Shown in pieces: positions 3,386-7,317 of a DNA stretch of 7,317 bases. This DNA comes from Tagaea sp. (GTDB taxonomy: Bacteria; Pseudomonadota; Alphaproteobacteria; CACIAM-22H2). A model generated the notes under the pieces. It saw only the letters and a program-made list of their open reading frames with translations, made no database searches and was not told the DNA's origin. Position 1 is the first letter of the stretch; each line of letters begins with the position of its first letter. The position numbers and the translations under genes are program-made. The DNA lies in assembly GCA_023653245.1 (NCBI GenBank), contig JAMNXK010000096.1, positions 1-7,317 of the forward strand. Reading direction: 5' to 3'.

Positions 3386-3835
3386 ATGACCCAACCCACC
3401 CGCCGCGCCATTCTGGCGCTTGTCCCCGGAGCCCTGTTCCTCATGACCGATTCGGCCGACGCGCAAAGCCCCGATCTCGCCACCGCGCGGCGCACGCGCT
3501 CGGGCCTGGGCATTCTCGACACGCGCGAAGGCGCGGGCGATTCGCCGGTCACCGGTCAGACGGTGCGCGTGCACTACACGGGCTGGCTGCTCGAGGACGG
3601 CAAGCGCGGCCGGAAATTCGATTCCTCGCGCGATCGCGGCCAGCCGTTCGAGTTTCCGCTCGGCGCGGGCCGGGTGATTCGCGGCTGGGACGAGGGTGTG
3701 GCTTCGATGAAGCCGGGCGGCCTGCGCACGCTGATCATCCCGCCGGATCTCGGCTACGGCGCGCGCGGTGCGGGCAACGTGATCCCGCCCAACGCCACGC
3801 TGGTGTTCGACGTCGAGCTGCTCGGCGCGCGCTAG
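3386..3835 (+). CDS. FKBP-type peptidyl-prolyl cis-trans isomerase, exported
   Basis: This is a 149-aa protein with a single FKBP domain that catalyses cis-trans isomerisation of X-Pro bonds. An N-terminal signal (about residues 1-27; [16 protein letters not shown] then ADA|Q) points to periplasmic folding; the TRR start is faintly Tat-like. Family motifs appear in order: VRVHYTGWL (60-68), KFDSS (77-81), [17 protein letters not shown] (88-104), [10 protein letters not shown] (116-125) and [14 protein letters not shown] (133-146). These cover the active-site aromatic and Asp positions of the family, including Tyr64, Phe78, Asp79, Val97, Ile98 and Trp101. The domain is complete. The last 20 codons plus stop (3773-3835) are repeated almost exactly at 5016-5078, so the present 3' end was probably supplied by an integrated element that restores the coding sequence. 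The gene is likely co-transcribed with the upstream lipoprotein gene. The ATG at 3386 has only a weak Shine-Dalgarno. Confidence 0.95.
3773..3835 (+). repeat. Direct repeat copy 1, putative attL (3' end of FKBP gene)
   Basis: Positions 3773-3831 are identical over 59 bp to 5016-5074. They are followed by one mismatch (C at 3832, G at 5075, both giving Arg) and the shared TAG stop. The bases on either side (3772 and 3836) differ from those flanking copy 2. The repeat starts exactly at codon 130 of the FKBP gene and covers its last 20 codons. It contains a perfect 10-bp palindrome, TCGACGTCGA, at 3807-3816, a possible recombinase site. Confidence 0.9.
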
Positions 3836-3850
3836 GCGAGAAACCTAGCG
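3830..3850. other. Hairpin joining the two convergent stop codons
   Basis: CGCTAGG (3830-3836) and CCTAGCG (3844-3850) form a perfect 7-bp inverted repeat around a 7-nt loop, CGAGAAA. The left arm contains the TAG stop of the FKBP gene, and the right arm contains the stop of the convergent 69-aa ORF. There is no T-tract on either strand, so it is not a canonical intrinsic terminator, although it could slow or end transcription in both directions. It spans the left junction of the proposed element and is absent after repeat copy 2. Confidence 0.45.
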
Positions 3851-4054
3851 GCGACGGCCGCGCGCGAGAAGGTCTTCGTAGAGCTCCTCCGCGTCGCGAC
3901 GGATCATTTCGCCCAATTTCGCCATCTCGGCGGCCGTCGTGTTGGGCTCGCCGGCGATCTTCGCCGCGAACTCCAGGGTCTCGTTGCGATGGACGACTTC
4001 GCCCATACTCGCGGAGCCCGTCGATGCCGGAGCGGCTGGAATTGTATCTGCCAT
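3845..4054 (-). CDS. Small hypothetical protein, second gene of the element cassette
   Basis: I do not recognise this 69-aa protein. The N-terminal 20 residues are Ala/Ser/Thr-rich and probably disordered. The rest (ETLEFAAKIAGEPN, then EMAKLGEMIRRDAEELYEDL) looks like two charged amphipathic helices ending in a basic tail, ARGRRR. No membrane segment or signal peptide is seen. The ATG at 4054 is chosen because GGGAG (minus strand, 4064-4068) lies 9 nt before it and the gene then begins 19 bp after the stop of the GAF-protein gene; the frame is open further upstream but would overlap that gene. Position and spacing indicate one operon with the GAF gene, and a possible partner, regulator or antitoxin-like role is only a guess. 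Its stop is 10 bp from the convergent FKBP stop. Confidence 0.65.
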   Translation of the reverse strand: MADTIPAAPASTGSASMGEVVHRNETLEFAAKIAGEPNTTAAEMAKLGEMIRRDAEELYEDLLARGRRR

Positions 4055-4073
4055 CTGGCGAACTCCCGATTCG

Positions 4074-4958
4074 TCAGTCCCGTTTATGCCTGAGGTGGAA
4101 AAAGGCGGCAAGCGTGTTGGCGGCGAACTCGATCGGCCGAATGGCGGGATTGCTGAAGCGGCCGGCTTTGTCGCTCGTCGCGACCAGCACGCCGAACGGC
4201 TCCGGGCCGCCATTCGCGCCGCCAATCGGCGCGGACAAGTACGACCGATAGAGCGTCTCGTCGTCGGGCTTGGTCATGCCGTGCGGCGCTTTGTATGCGT
4301 CGCGAACATCCGGATGCGTCGCGTCGGAGGAGAGGAGCGGCTCCCTTCGAGCCCAAGCCCTTCCGACATGTCCTTCGCCGACAGGCCACGTCCGTCCGAC
4401 CCGCTTGCTACCCGGATGGAGCTTGGGCGCAATTCGGTCGAAGTGTTTCAGGCTTGCCGATGCTTTGTCGTGCACATAGACGGTCAGACTCCAGAGTTCG
4501 TTGCGGTCGAACGCGAACAGCGACTCCGCGTTCTTGTCCATGGTGGCCAGGAACTCTTGGACAGCCTCTCTAAGCGCCGCGTCGTCGAGGCGCTGGAGTG
4601 TCATTTTCCGCTGGACAAGTGCGGCACAGGCGGAGGCCCACATGGCGAATGTCGCGCCGTAGCGCGCAGCGGCCTCGGTGTTGGCGAAGTCCCGCTCCAG
4701 TTCGGCGATCGCGCCGATCTGTTCGACGACAAGCGGCGCCTTGTACGTCACCCACGCGAACCAAATCGTCGCCCCGACCAGTACGACGATCAAGACCGTC
4801 GCCGAGCGCCAATCCATCTCGTTCACGAACGAGGCCGCGAAGCCCGAGCCGGCCGCCAAACCGGCCAAGATTACCGTCGAGTGTTGGTGAACGGCCTTCG
4901 CGTGTTGCCCCGCTTTGCGGGCGACGGCATACAGATCGCCGAAAGGATGGAACTTCAT
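4074..4958 (-). CDS. Membrane protein with two TM helices and a GAF-like sensor domain
   Basis: The 294-aa product has two hydrophobic segments, about residues 27-46 (STVILAGLAAGSGFAASF) and 51-72 (ATVLIVVLVGATIWFAWV). A helical region follows (about 75-150) that may form a coiled coil or linker. A C-terminal GAF-like domain spans about 155-290: WSLTVYV, then WPVGEGHVGRAWARREPLL, DATHPDV, YLSAPIGGANGGPEPFGVLV and a closing helix. GAF domains bind small ligands such as cyclic nucleotides, haem or tetrapyrroles, or act as protein-interaction modules. No kinase, cyclase, phosphodiesterase, DNA-binding or nuclease domain is attached, so the output must be through the membrane segment or a partner. 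It is the promoter-proximal gene of the two-gene cassette in the proposed element. The ATG at 4958 lacks a good Shine-Dalgarno and sits 6 nt from a -10 box, suggesting a leaderless mRNA. Function is unknown; a stress-sensing or phage-defence role is speculation from its mobile context. Confidence 0.82.
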   Translation of the reverse strand: MKFHPFGDLYAVARKAGQHAKAVHQHSTVILAGLAAGSGFAASFVNEMDWRSATVLIVVLVGATIWFAWVTYKAPLVVEQIGAIAELERDFANTEAAARYGATFAMWASACAALVQRKMTLQRLDDAALREAVQEFLATMDKNAESLFAFDRNELWSLTVYVHDKASASLKHFDRIAPKLHPGSKRVGRTWPVGEGHVGRAWARREPLLSSDATHPDVRDAYKAPHGMTKPDDETLYRSYLSAPIGGANGGPEPFGVLVATSDKAGRFSNPAIRPIEFAANTLAAFFHLRHKRD

Positions 4959-4964
4959 GATAAA

Positions 4965-4993
4965 ATATTACTCTCTAGTCAATCTTTCGTCAA
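4965..4993 (-). promoter_or_regulatory. Sigma70-type promoter of the element cassette, probably leaderless
   Basis: On the minus strand TTGACG (4988-4993) and TAATAT (4965-4970) are separated by exactly 17 nt, in the only clearly AT-rich stretch of the window. The -10 box ends 6 nt before the ATG at 4958, so the expected start point, about 7 nt downstream, is the A of the start codon. Lack of a Shine-Dalgarno at that ATG agrees with leaderless translation. The promoter lies within 50 bp of the right repeat, inside the element. Confidence 0.6.
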
Positions 4994-5015
4994 CAAAAAC
5001 CGCTTGTTTTGTCTC

Positions 5016-5078
5016 GGCAACGTGATCCCGCCCAACGCCACGCTGGTGTTCGACGTCGAGCTGCTCGGCGCGCGGTAG
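5016..5078 (+). repeat. Direct repeat copy 2, putative attR (orphan FKBP gene tail)
   Basis: This is a promoterless copy of the last 20 FKBP codons and stop, identical to copy 1 over 59 bp (5016-5074). The final Arg codon is CGG instead of CGC, followed by TAG. It is attached to no FKBP coding sequence. If the integration model is right, this copy and the DNA to its right are the original 3' end and downstream flank of the host gene. Confidence 0.88.
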
Positions 5079-5113
5079 AGCACAATGCGTTTTTACGGAA
5101 GCGTTCTTGGACC

Positions 5114-5187
5114 GGCCTCGCCCTTCGACAGGCTCAGGGTGAGGCCTACTCCTTAAACCTCATGGTGAGCCTGTCGAACCATGAGGT
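5114..5187. repeat. Paired REP-like hairpins with complementary loops
   Basis: Hairpin A has an 11-bp stem (5114-5124 with 5136-5146, one G-T pair) and the loop TCGACAGGCTC (5125-5135). Hairpin B has a perfect 10-bp stem (5157-5166 with 5178-5187) and the loop GAGCCTGTCGA (5167-5177). The two loops are exact reverse complements, and the hairpins are separated by 10 nt. The TTCGACAGGCTCA core is, from general knowledge, a widespread intergenic repeat in alphaproteobacteria. It lies between convergent genes, the usual REP location, where it could block read-through or protect 3' ends. The rest of the 142-bp gap (5079-5220) shows nothing further. Confidence 0.75.
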
Positions 5188-5220
5188 CGGCACGGCGTTT
5201 CCAACAGAACACATCATGCT

Positions 5221-6309
5221 CTAAGCGCGCACGCGAATCTCGATGTCGTCCGTCGCCGGGCGCATCGCCACCCATTGCGCGGTCTGGCGGTTCCACACCG
5301 GCGCTTGGGCGTGGACGCGCGCGAAGACCGCGTCGAGATCGCGGCCTTGGGCTTGCGCCAGCGCCGCCTCGACCATGTCCCGGCGCCGTCGCGACGTCGC
5401 CATCAGCGTGCGGCTTTCCCAATCGGTCGCGGGATCGAGCGCTTGCCCGACATTGCGCGACGCGAAAGGACTGTCCGCGTCGAAATGGTTCGTGCGCACC
5501 AGGAAGCCGCGCTTGGGCATCGCCACCGCGCGGCAGGCGATCTTTCCGTCCGCGCCGAAGCCGAATTCGAACGCAGCACCCTCCTCCGGGCCGACGCCGC
5601 ACAGCGTCAGGAACACGGGTGCGGCCGGGCGCAGTTTCTCGATGGCGGCGTAGGCGGCGGCGAAGGAATCGACCGCGTCGTCCTGCATCAGATCGCGCAG
5701 CAGATAGGTGGGATCGTCGCCGCGGCCGATTCCGAACCAGCCCCAGGGTGCCGAGTTGATCGCGATCGAGAAGCCGCGCCCCACGGCGGTCAGCAGACCC
5801 ACCATGCCGGCAATGCCCGCGCAGCGGAAGGCGGTCGTCCCGTCCGCGCGCCGGAAGCCTTTGCGCCGCGTGGCGCGCGCGATTTCGGCGGTCGAGCGCC
5901 AATCGAGGCTGCGGAAATGGCGCATCGAGCCGCGCTCTTCGTCCCACGCCACGCTCGACGTGCACGCGCTGGCGATGGCTTTCGAGAAGCTGTACTGCGC
6001 CTGCAGGAAGGCGACTTGCGCGGGGTCCGCGTCGGCGGCGAAGAATTCGCGCGCGAGATGGTCGCTCTCGGCCCCGTAGCGCGGATGGCGCGTGCGGCCC
6101 GTCGCGCGCAGCAGCCGCGGCACGACGCGCCACGCGATCCTGCCCGCCACGCTGCCGGTGACGATGCCGATCATCGCGCGGCCCAGTTCGCGCGCCGCCG
6201 CGCGATCGTCGTCGCGCGCGAGATCGGCCCAGATCGCCTCGGGCGCGGACGCCTGGAAATCGACGACCCGGTCGTGACCGGGATCGAGGGGGCGCACGCT
6301 ATTCGCCAC
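5221..6309 (-). CDS. Acid ceramidase/NAAA-like cysteine Ntn hydrolase
   Basis: The 362-aa product resembles the linear-amide C-N hydrolases of the acid ceramidase / N-acylethanolamine amidase group, which self-cleave to expose an N-terminal Cys nucleophile. The signature is ACTSSVAWDEERGSMRHFRSLDW-like: Cys116 is the predicted nucleophile, with Arg133 and Asp136 in the family's R-x-x-D-W context. Further family-like elements are GMVGLLTAVGRGFSIAIN (168-185), PTYLLRDLM (200-208), LCGVGPEEGAAFE (236-248), VRTNHF with Asn274 (271-276) and the C-terminal VWNRQTAQWVAMRP. Residues 1-115 would be the propeptide or small subunit. No signal peptide is seen. The GTG at 6309 is chosen: GAGG (6317-6320, minus strand) lies 7 nt upstream, and the start overlaps the stop of the alpha/beta hydrolase gene by 11 bp, implying translational coupling. 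The family call is good; ceramide, N-acylethanolamine, bile-salt-like or penicillin-type substrates cannot be distinguished. Confidence 0.82.
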   Translation of the reverse strand: MANSVRPLDPGHDRVVDFQASAPEAIWADLARDDDRAAARELGRAMIGIVTGSVAGRIAWRVVPRLLRATGRTRHPRYGAESDHLAREFFAADADPAQVAFLQAQYSFSKAIASACTSSVAWDEERGSMRHFRSLDWRSTAEIARATRRKGFRRADGTTAFRCAGIAGMVGLLTAVGRGFSIAINSAPWGWFGIGRGDDPTYLLRDLMQDDAVDSFAAAYAAIEKLRPAAPVFLTLCGVGPEEGAAFEFGFGADGKIACRAVAMPKRGFLVRTNHFDADSPFASRNVGQALDPATDWESRTLMATSRRRRDMVEAALAQAQGRDLDAVFARVHAQAPVWNRQTAQWVAMRPATDDIEIRVRA

Positions 6310-7123
6310 GCGCGAACCTCACGATGAGCGCGGCCATCTCCGCCTCCTGATCGGCGAAGCCGTGCGGCGAGCGGCCTTCGCAGGCGGCGAGATCGGCGGC
6401 GCCGGGCGCGCCGCCCGGGCCGCCTTCCATCACCGTCGCGCGTTTGCGGGGGCTCGCACTCGCGCGTTCGGCGATGCGCGGCACGTTGGACGGCGGCGAG
6501 CGCACGCAGGTGTCGCCCGCGTGCCCGAGCACGAACAGCGGCATCGCGATGCGCGCCAGCGGCAGCTGGAACACGTCTTGCGACACGAAAGGAAGATTGC
6601 CGCGCGCACCCTGGCTCACCGGCGAGGTGAGCACGACGCCGTCCGGTGCCGCCGGGCCGGTCAGCCGCGACGCGGCGTTGGCGGCGGAGATGGCACCCCG
6701 GCTCGTGCCCACCAGCCAGACCGGCACGAGATAGGTTTCGCGCAAGGCGGCGATCGCCACGCCCAATGCTTCGGCATGCGCGGGCTCGATCCGGAAGGTC
6801 GAGAGCCCGTGTTGGCCGCGCCACTCGGCCGGCGCATCGACCAGCGCGGTCACGGCGCCGCCCTTCGCGAATTCGGGAATCGCGCGGATCAGCGAGTTTC
6901 CGCGCAAGGCGCGCGGGCAGCCTTGCGGATCGAGATCGACCAGCCCCGATCCGCCGGCCAGCAGCACGAACACCATCGTGGGCGCCGCCGCCGGTGCGGC
7001 GATCGAGACCGTGAAACGGCCGCCGGACGGCGGATCGAAATGGCGCAGCTCGCCGCATTTGGTTTGCGCCATGGCGCTTCCAGCCGCGCAGAGCGACGCC
7101 AAGATCCATGCGATGATTTTCAT
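6299..7123 (-). CDS. Exported alpha/beta hydrolase
   Basis: The 274-aa protein starts with a classical signal peptide (MKIIAWILASLCAAGSAMA, cleavage before Gln20). The remainder has an alpha/beta-hydrolase pattern: VFVLLAGGSG (51-60) as the oxyanion-region loop, the nucleophile elbow GTSRG with Ser141, a catalytic acid candidate Asp204 in LGHAGDTCV and a catalytic His254 in SPHGF. Cys206 and Cys248 could form a disulfide near the active site. It is therefore probably a periplasmic or secreted esterase, lipase or amidase. The ATG at 7123 is preferred over an upstream in-frame start at 7156 because it begins the signal peptide and overlaps the stop of the upstream serine-hydrolase gene as ATGA. 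It in turn overlaps the Ntn hydrolase gene by 11 bp. The substrate is unknown. Confidence 0.85.
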   Translation of the reverse strand: MKIIAWILASLCAAGSAMAQTKCGELRHFDPPSGGRFTVSIAAPAAAPTMVFVLLAGGSGLVDLDPQGCPRALRGNSLIRAIPEFAKGGAVTALVDAPAEWRGQHGLSTFRIEPAHAEALGVAIAALRETYLVPVWLVGTSRGAISAANAASRLTGPAAPDGVVLTSPVSQGARGNLPFVSQDVFQLPLARIAMPLFVLGHAGDTCVRSPPSNVPRIAERASASPRKRATVMEGGPGGAPGAADLAACEGRSPHGFADQEAEMAALIVRFARGE

Positions 7124-7317
7124 CTTGCCCCCAACGATGCGCGCACGCCGCGCCACAGCGCCGTTTGTTGCGCGCCCTCCGGGTTGTTCGACGGCCGCGC
7201 GCGCGCCGCCAAATGGACCATCACGAGCTTCGCCTCCGGATCGACATAGATCGACTGGCCGTAAATGCCGAGCAACGCGAAGCCCCCCGTGTTGCGCGGG
7301 AAAATCCAGGTTTGATA
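7120..7317 (-). CDS. Beta-lactamase-fold serine hydrolase, C-terminal fragment (window edge)
   Basis: Only the last 65 codons and the TGA stop lie in the window; the 5' part continues past 7317. The fragment reads YQTWIFPRNTGGFALLGIYG, then QSIYVDPEAKLVMVHLAAR. This matches the C-terminal sheet of the class C beta-lactamase-like / EstB / 6-aminohexanoate-dimer hydrolase (NylB) group (YGYQxW, FxALGxxGQxIYVDPxxKLV). The catalytic SxxK and YxN motifs would be outside the window, so activity cannot be judged. The TGA overlaps the ATG of the alpha/beta hydrolase gene in ATGA, so this is the upstream gene of the coupled hydrolase operon. It could be an esterase, amide hydrolase or peptidase rather than an antibiotic beta-lactamase. 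Confidence 0.82.
   Translation of the reverse strand, partial: YQTWIFPRNTGGFALLGIYGQSIYVDPEAKLVMVHLAARARPSNNPEGAQQTALWRGVRASLGAR

Follow-up and report, generated by a model that had tools for sequence, protein, structure and literature searches.

How does the end of a gene come to stand twice on one stretch of DNA, with two other genes between the copies? In the window analyzed here (the whole stretch of DNA, 7,317 nucleotides), the question is raised by a gene for an FKBP-type prolyl isomerase, the tail of which recurs downstream in the same orientation. The original prediction read the DNA between the copies as a mobile cassette that rebuilds the end of its target gene. We describe herein the repeat, the same locus in relatives, the cargo and the flanks, and weigh the ways in which such an arrangement could have arisen.

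Duplication of the FKBP gene end

The following features define the duplication.

3386..3835, plus strand: FKBP-type prolyl isomerase gene, 149 aa, the target gene, intact (Pfam FKBP_C, E 1.7e-35)
3773..3835, plus strand: left repeat copy, the last 20 FKBP codons and the stop, candidate attL
5016..5078, plus strand: right repeat copy, candidate attR, its TAG coinciding with the first bases of a palindrome

The two copies form a direct repeat of 63 nt with a spacing of 1243, beginning at codon 130 of the 149 and identical at 62 of 63 positions; the single mismatch, C versus G, falls in the last sense codon. The longest exact repeat of the window is 59 bp, while dinucleotide-matched simulations (n=200) gave a mean of 14.2 and a maximum of 17. 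The last 20 codons are thus duplicated, with the exact run and the spacing that had been claimed. When the FKBP body is read into the right copy the protein is identical, and FKBP is intact on either copy. It had also been claimed that the repeat follows an exact codon boundary. The 20 codons do match, but the TAG of the right copy may belong to a 148-bp palindrome and not to the duplication, because that palindrome starts at 5076; the secure length of the duplication is therefore 59 bp.

The nearest match of both tail copies is the relative G018, and the left copy shares with it 59 of the 60 bases before the stop. A foreign donor lineage for the tail was considered and rejected, both copies being closest to G018 and no foreign tail being visible. 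A search of plasmid DNA returned four records with pieces of the FKBP tail only, and one record of a phage collection contained an FKBP-like stretch (68% over 55% of the gene). Two FKBP-tail patterns found no match in viral contigs, in a search that had no positive control.

The FKBP locus in relatives

An FKBP match was found in 12 of the 23 genomes of the family; that of G003, only 66% identical, is perhaps a paralogue. At the protein level G018 is closest to the window (91%), followed by three genomes at 82%. All 12 lack the cassette at this locus, so that the empty sites expected by the original prediction do exist, and because of this absence the cassette is an insertion relative to these relatives. 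Its interior (3864-5015) had no DNA match in the 137 loci searched. What lies behind the FKBP stop differs among relatives: the end of an SDR-like gene (named by eye) follows at once in L099, L100, L101 and L103, an esterase lies directly behind it in L001, L097 and L098, other sequence is present in L102, L104, L002 and L105, and in G018 the stop is followed by 33 extra bases and then the SDR-like gene. A partial glnD tree groups the window with G001, G013 and G016; G018, whose contig carries no glnD, was left out of it.

The original prediction had also called for a search for other cargo at FKBP 3' ends. A scan for a second tail covered 90 FKBP loci, namely the best 80 among the matches listed (L001 and L002 being those of G001 and G002) and ten further family loci. 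Downstream sequence was available for 89 of them (median 6 kb, at least 5 kb in 76), and none of these 89 has a second FKBP tail, four showing chance-like matches of 13-21 bases. Within the 23 family genomes the tail was found once in each of 12; G002, G003 and G021 each gave one extra weak match of 23-42 bases on another contig.

A probable footprint in G018

The 33 bases that G018 has in excess of G017 and G020 stand at the FKBP stop, flanked by GGCGCGCGCT on one side and AAACGCCGC on the other; with G019 as the partner, the aligner broke the gap into scattered pieces. These 33 bp align with the window bases that follow the left copy (after 3835) with a score of 12. As controls, stretches behind the stops of other long frames in family loci never reached this score (0 of 357, maximum 9), and two of 3000 random-position controls did, a figure uncorrected for the 12 relatives and the two sides looked at. 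Among the other 11 junctions, L105 came closest to the left end with a score of 9 and the remaining ones gave 0 or 1; the window bases after the right copy scored 0 against G018. Read on the minus strand, the G018 insertion retains RGRRR, which is the end of a 69-aa ORF in the cassette. The 33 bp are probably, from this resemblance, the scar of a related insert, the alternative being a native terminator sequence shared by the two genomes. The footprint suggests that the FKBP junction was used repeatedly, and is the sole sign of it.

In the FKBP body, the window and G018 are identical at 48 of 67 fourfold sites. An insertion dating back to the split from G018 should have left an unconstrained right copy with more than one difference in 63 bases; the right copy is too little diverged for such an age, which would call for either two visits or some upkeep of that copy. 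If the 33 bp were instead native by descent, then the left copy and its flank would be the native junction, which is unfit for a simple integration model.

Cargo and composition of the cassette

The DNA between the copies, read from left to right, is made up as follows.

3826..3856, no strand assigned: hairpin at the left cassette terminus (-16.1 kcal/mol, z -3.35)
3845..4054, minus strand: 69-aa ORF, cargo gene 2 (one relative, P0009, at 72%, besides the window's own P0008)
4074..4958, minus strand: cargo gene 1, for a 294-aa protein with a GAF-like domain at its C-terminus (Pfam GAF_2 at E 1.8e-5, short of the curated cut-off)
4959..5015, minus strand: AT-rich right cassette end, 57 bp, GC 33%, with a promoter-like site

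The two minus-strand ORFs, of 294 and 69 aa, are the two-gene cargo that the original prediction had described. By eye, the 294-aa protein begins with two membrane helices, and the profile of its family matches the solved NLH1 (E 2e-4), the matched chain of which we take to be a GAF domain. At least six relatives besides itself occur in 5.8 billion proteins, with identities of 88, 61, 53, 35, 34 and 34%, the one at 35% covering 53% of the query; in each such search the roughly 8,000 candidates with the most shared words were scored. More distant proteins of the same build (two membrane helices and a GAF domain, 2TM-GAF) occur in G330 and G293, three of 385 genomes of the class having matched, the third (G027, L095) marginally at E 7.8e-4. 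A further one is present in G422, and G734 has a partial match (L107, L129). The 23 family genomes contain no 2TM-GAF relative; three of them match the GAF part alone, two of these in 767-aa frames. Matches to the GAF part in larger frames, which make up most of those in 42 of 398 genomes and include the three of the 23, presumably represent PtsP and were not counted as relatives. Around the other 2TM-GAF genes (L126, L127, L128), a search for repeats gave only chance-like matches of 11-16 bases.

The distant gene of G330 (L127 7052-8011; L093 1057-2019) lies between mutS (named by eye) and glnD, and is missing in the other three of the four genomes of G330's family. The FKBP site of L001 likewise lies between mutS and glnD. 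This interval is possibly a shared hotspot, or the agreement is a coincidence, seen as it is in one of the three distant relatives examined.

The 69-aa ORF has no match in Pfam, NCBIfam, PADLOC or PHROG at E 1, and its relative P0009 retains the C-terminus LLARGRRR. Judged by domains only, the larger cargo protein probably serves as a GAF sensor anchored in the membrane, and the smaller one as its partner. A known defence system was rejected for want of a PADLOC match at E 1, P0004 giving only weak matches to SLATT_1 and DUF4231. Viral and plasmid origins were rejected as well: 7 and 94 pattern stretches were found in viral contigs and no relative was confirmed among them, nor was any confirmed in plasmids. 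A noncoding RNA was likewise rejected, with none in Rfam at E 0.5.

A promoter of the cassette's own had been proposed. A sigma-70-like site, TTGACG-17-TAATAT, does run from 4993 to 4965 on the minus strand, ahead of both ORFs; two overlapping matches of this kind were counted, against a mean of 0.2 in shuffled sequences. However, 6 bases separate the end of its -10 box from the ATG of the GAF gene (window 4956-4993); the mRNA of this gene would be nearly leaderless, or else the site is not the real promoter. At the opposite end, the two arms of the hairpin at 3826-3856 contain one stop codon each, that of FKBP and that of the convergent 69-aa ORF.

The GC content of the cassette is 62.4%, as against 68.7-71.2% in the gene-bearing flanks; a palindromic stretch to its right (5079-5220) is lower still, at 55.6%. 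Gene by gene, the cargo has 63.6 and 65.2% and the other genes 67.5-74.1%, with GC3 values of 0.77-0.79 versus 0.83-0.89. By these measures the cassette appears somewhat foreign in composition.

The right side of the cassette

Three further features lie to the right of the cassette.

5076..5223, no strand assigned: palindromic element, 148 bp, with a REP-like dispersed core (-75.9 kcal/mol, z -9.21)
5221..6309, minus strand: C45-type hydrolase gene (NCBIfam C45_proenzyme, E 2.6e-11, 43 bits against a cut-off of 85)
6299..7156, minus strand: esterase-like gene, a relative of which lies directly behind FKBP in L001, L097 and L098 (weak Pfam Hydrolase_4, E 0.0098)

The core of the palindrome is matched in 7 of the 23 family genomes, with nine matches in G001 and five in G016; its outer arms were not evident in the seven copies inspected. 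The REP-like core lies inside another pair of inverted arms, TAGAGCA...TGCTCTA, which gives the impression of a REP inserted into a palindromic element of smaller size. The C45-type hydrolase gene has no Pfam match and was found in none of the 23 family genomes, in a search run without a positive control. The region from FKBP to the esterase is thus variable, this gene lying between the esterase and the cassette. As a neighbor of the cassette, the gene may itself be another gain at this location.

Origin of the insertion

The cassette was predicted to lack a recombinase, and indeed no recombinase or mobility gene was recognized in it with Pfam, NCBIfam, PADLOC or PHROGs. On the FKBP contigs of the 12 family genomes, a search for Pfam Phage_integrase, the recombinase family covered there, gave no match up to 50 kb from FKBP; three of the 12 contigs (G016, G017, G020) reach 50 kb on both sides, and the nearest match found lies about 54 kb from FKBP, in G020. 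Nor does an inverted-arm core of the tyrosine-recombinase type stand out in the repeat, as 255 of 300 random 63-mers of the window do as well or better. That no such gene was recognized in the element or nearby on the contigs, and that the repeat shows no recognizable inverted-arm core, argues against a tyrosine recombinase. Database contigs of 1,237 and 1,251 bp were considered as a sign of a circle and dropped, the former apparently carrying no full GAF gene.

The account that we favor, at about an even chance of being right, is that a foreign two-gene islet came in through a single crossover between the FKBP 3' end and a circle, or a larger element, with the same end, and that any mobility would depend on an outside enzyme. 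A small circle, or a larger element that has since decayed, would have borne a copy of the FKBP 3' end. A single crossover between this circle and the chromosomal FKBP 3' end would then leave the islet between two tail copies and FKBP intact, so that the repeat, the intact gene and the insertion would arise in one step. Movement, if any, would be driven by an enzyme from another element or from the host, as for a CIME or the H47 island of E. coli. The circle and the crossover are what we infer from this pattern, and mobility, plausible from the sequence, is likewise what we infer and not what we observe, because none of the 89 other loci has a second tail.

Homologous recombination and break repair are real rivals, even if together we consider them unlikely. 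A RecA-dependent single crossover in FKBP with DNA carrying FKBP and the two genes, or a break repair that copied the tail, would give the same structure with neither site specificity nor later mobility. The tail is of the host's own kind, as its near identity to G018 indicates, and the lack of a recognized recombinase, of an att-like core and of other tail duplications all fit such an event. On the other hand, the crossover or copy must fall just where FKBP stays intact, and the G018 footprint at the same junction suggests repeated use. Taken to its limit, repeated use would mean that a family of recombinase-free two-gene cassettes of about 1.2 kb, each with a membrane GAF protein and a small partner, enters and leaves the stop codon of chromosomal FKBP genes again and again, with the captured gene end as its sole mobility feature and the G018 bases as a scar; we hold this to be distinctly unlikely.

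A different course of events would make the left junction native. In the common ancestor of G018 and the window, FKBP would have been followed by terminator-like sequence of some 30 bp; the genes would have been inserted beyond it, and the right tail would be a later local duplication beside the palindrome. The resemblance of the G018 33 bp to the bases after 3835 is explained in this way, and the right copy does abut a palindromic repeat. However, the 69-aa ORF ends at this same left terminus, and its C-terminus is kept in P0009 at 72% identity; an extra duplication event is required as well, and we regard such a course as very unlikely. An assembly artefact is scarcely credible. Were the window a contig from a metagenome, the identical 59 bp could have caused a false join, a stretch of this length being near the k-mer lengths used by assemblers, and the window is known from a single record; but the tail is passed twice, with distinct flanks and one base difference, and the longest contig in the cluster of the 69-aa ORF is 1,237 bp and not 7,317, so that it is probably another record, maybe of the same sample.

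Should the islet of the favored account prove mobile, a chromosomal FKBP gene would harbor an integrative unit of very small size that brings cargo genes but no enzyme, and a two-gene cassette would need nothing beyond a captured gene end to be mobile. If it is immobile, the locus is a clear gene gain accompanied by one gene-end duplication.

Comparison with known systems

XerCD pdif modules carry small cargo between short 28-bp dif-like sites and have no recombinase of their own, but the 63-bp tail of the cassette differs from such sites in having no clear inverted arms. The arrangement resembles integrative elements at gene 3' ends in that the sites of relatives are empty and FKBP is kept intact; the G018 site has its 33-bp footprint. 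A prolyl-isomerase gene has been reported as an integration site elsewhere: integrative and mobilizable elements (IMEs) of Streptococcus suis integrate in one. These IMEs have a relaxase, and the isomerase gene in question is reported to lie in ICEs of the Tn5252 family (PMC9652813, PMC12479173). The likeness is in the kind of gene, whereas FKBP here is chromosomal and the cassette has no mobility gene. The available part of PMC5357655 was found to make no mention of PPI, isomerase or CIME, and in such portions of the literature as were searched no report of a chromosomal FKBP gene as an integration site was recognized.

Closer parallels are found among elements without an enzyme of their own. 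CIMEs are a named class in which the integration and transfer genes are lost and attL and attR are kept, and the direct repeats of tyrosine-recombinase IMEs are generally 8-60 bp (PMC5704250). The cassette is like a CIME in being flanked by direct repeats that resemble attL and attR (as candidate sites) and in carrying no integrase or transfer genes; it differs in that no related ICE or IME was found at its FKBP site. At 1.24 kb, it is also very small beside CIMEs. The H47 genomic island of E. coli measures 13 kb, is flanked by direct repeats and has no recombinase of its own; its excision and integration were shown experimentally, and none of the 16 site-specific recombinases of K12, nor any of the RecA-pathway proteins tested, was reported to be involved in excision (PMC3191183, PMC5426353). 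The cassette shares with H47 the direct-repeat flanks and the lack of its own recombinase, the recombination function being supplied to H47 from outside; the movement of H47 is demonstrated, whereas the FKBP cassette is known from its sequence. The best reading of the cassette is thus a recombinase-less integrated islet, CIME-like or like the H47 island: a real and unusually small insertion that duplicates a gene end, of a known class but at an unusual site and of an unusual size.
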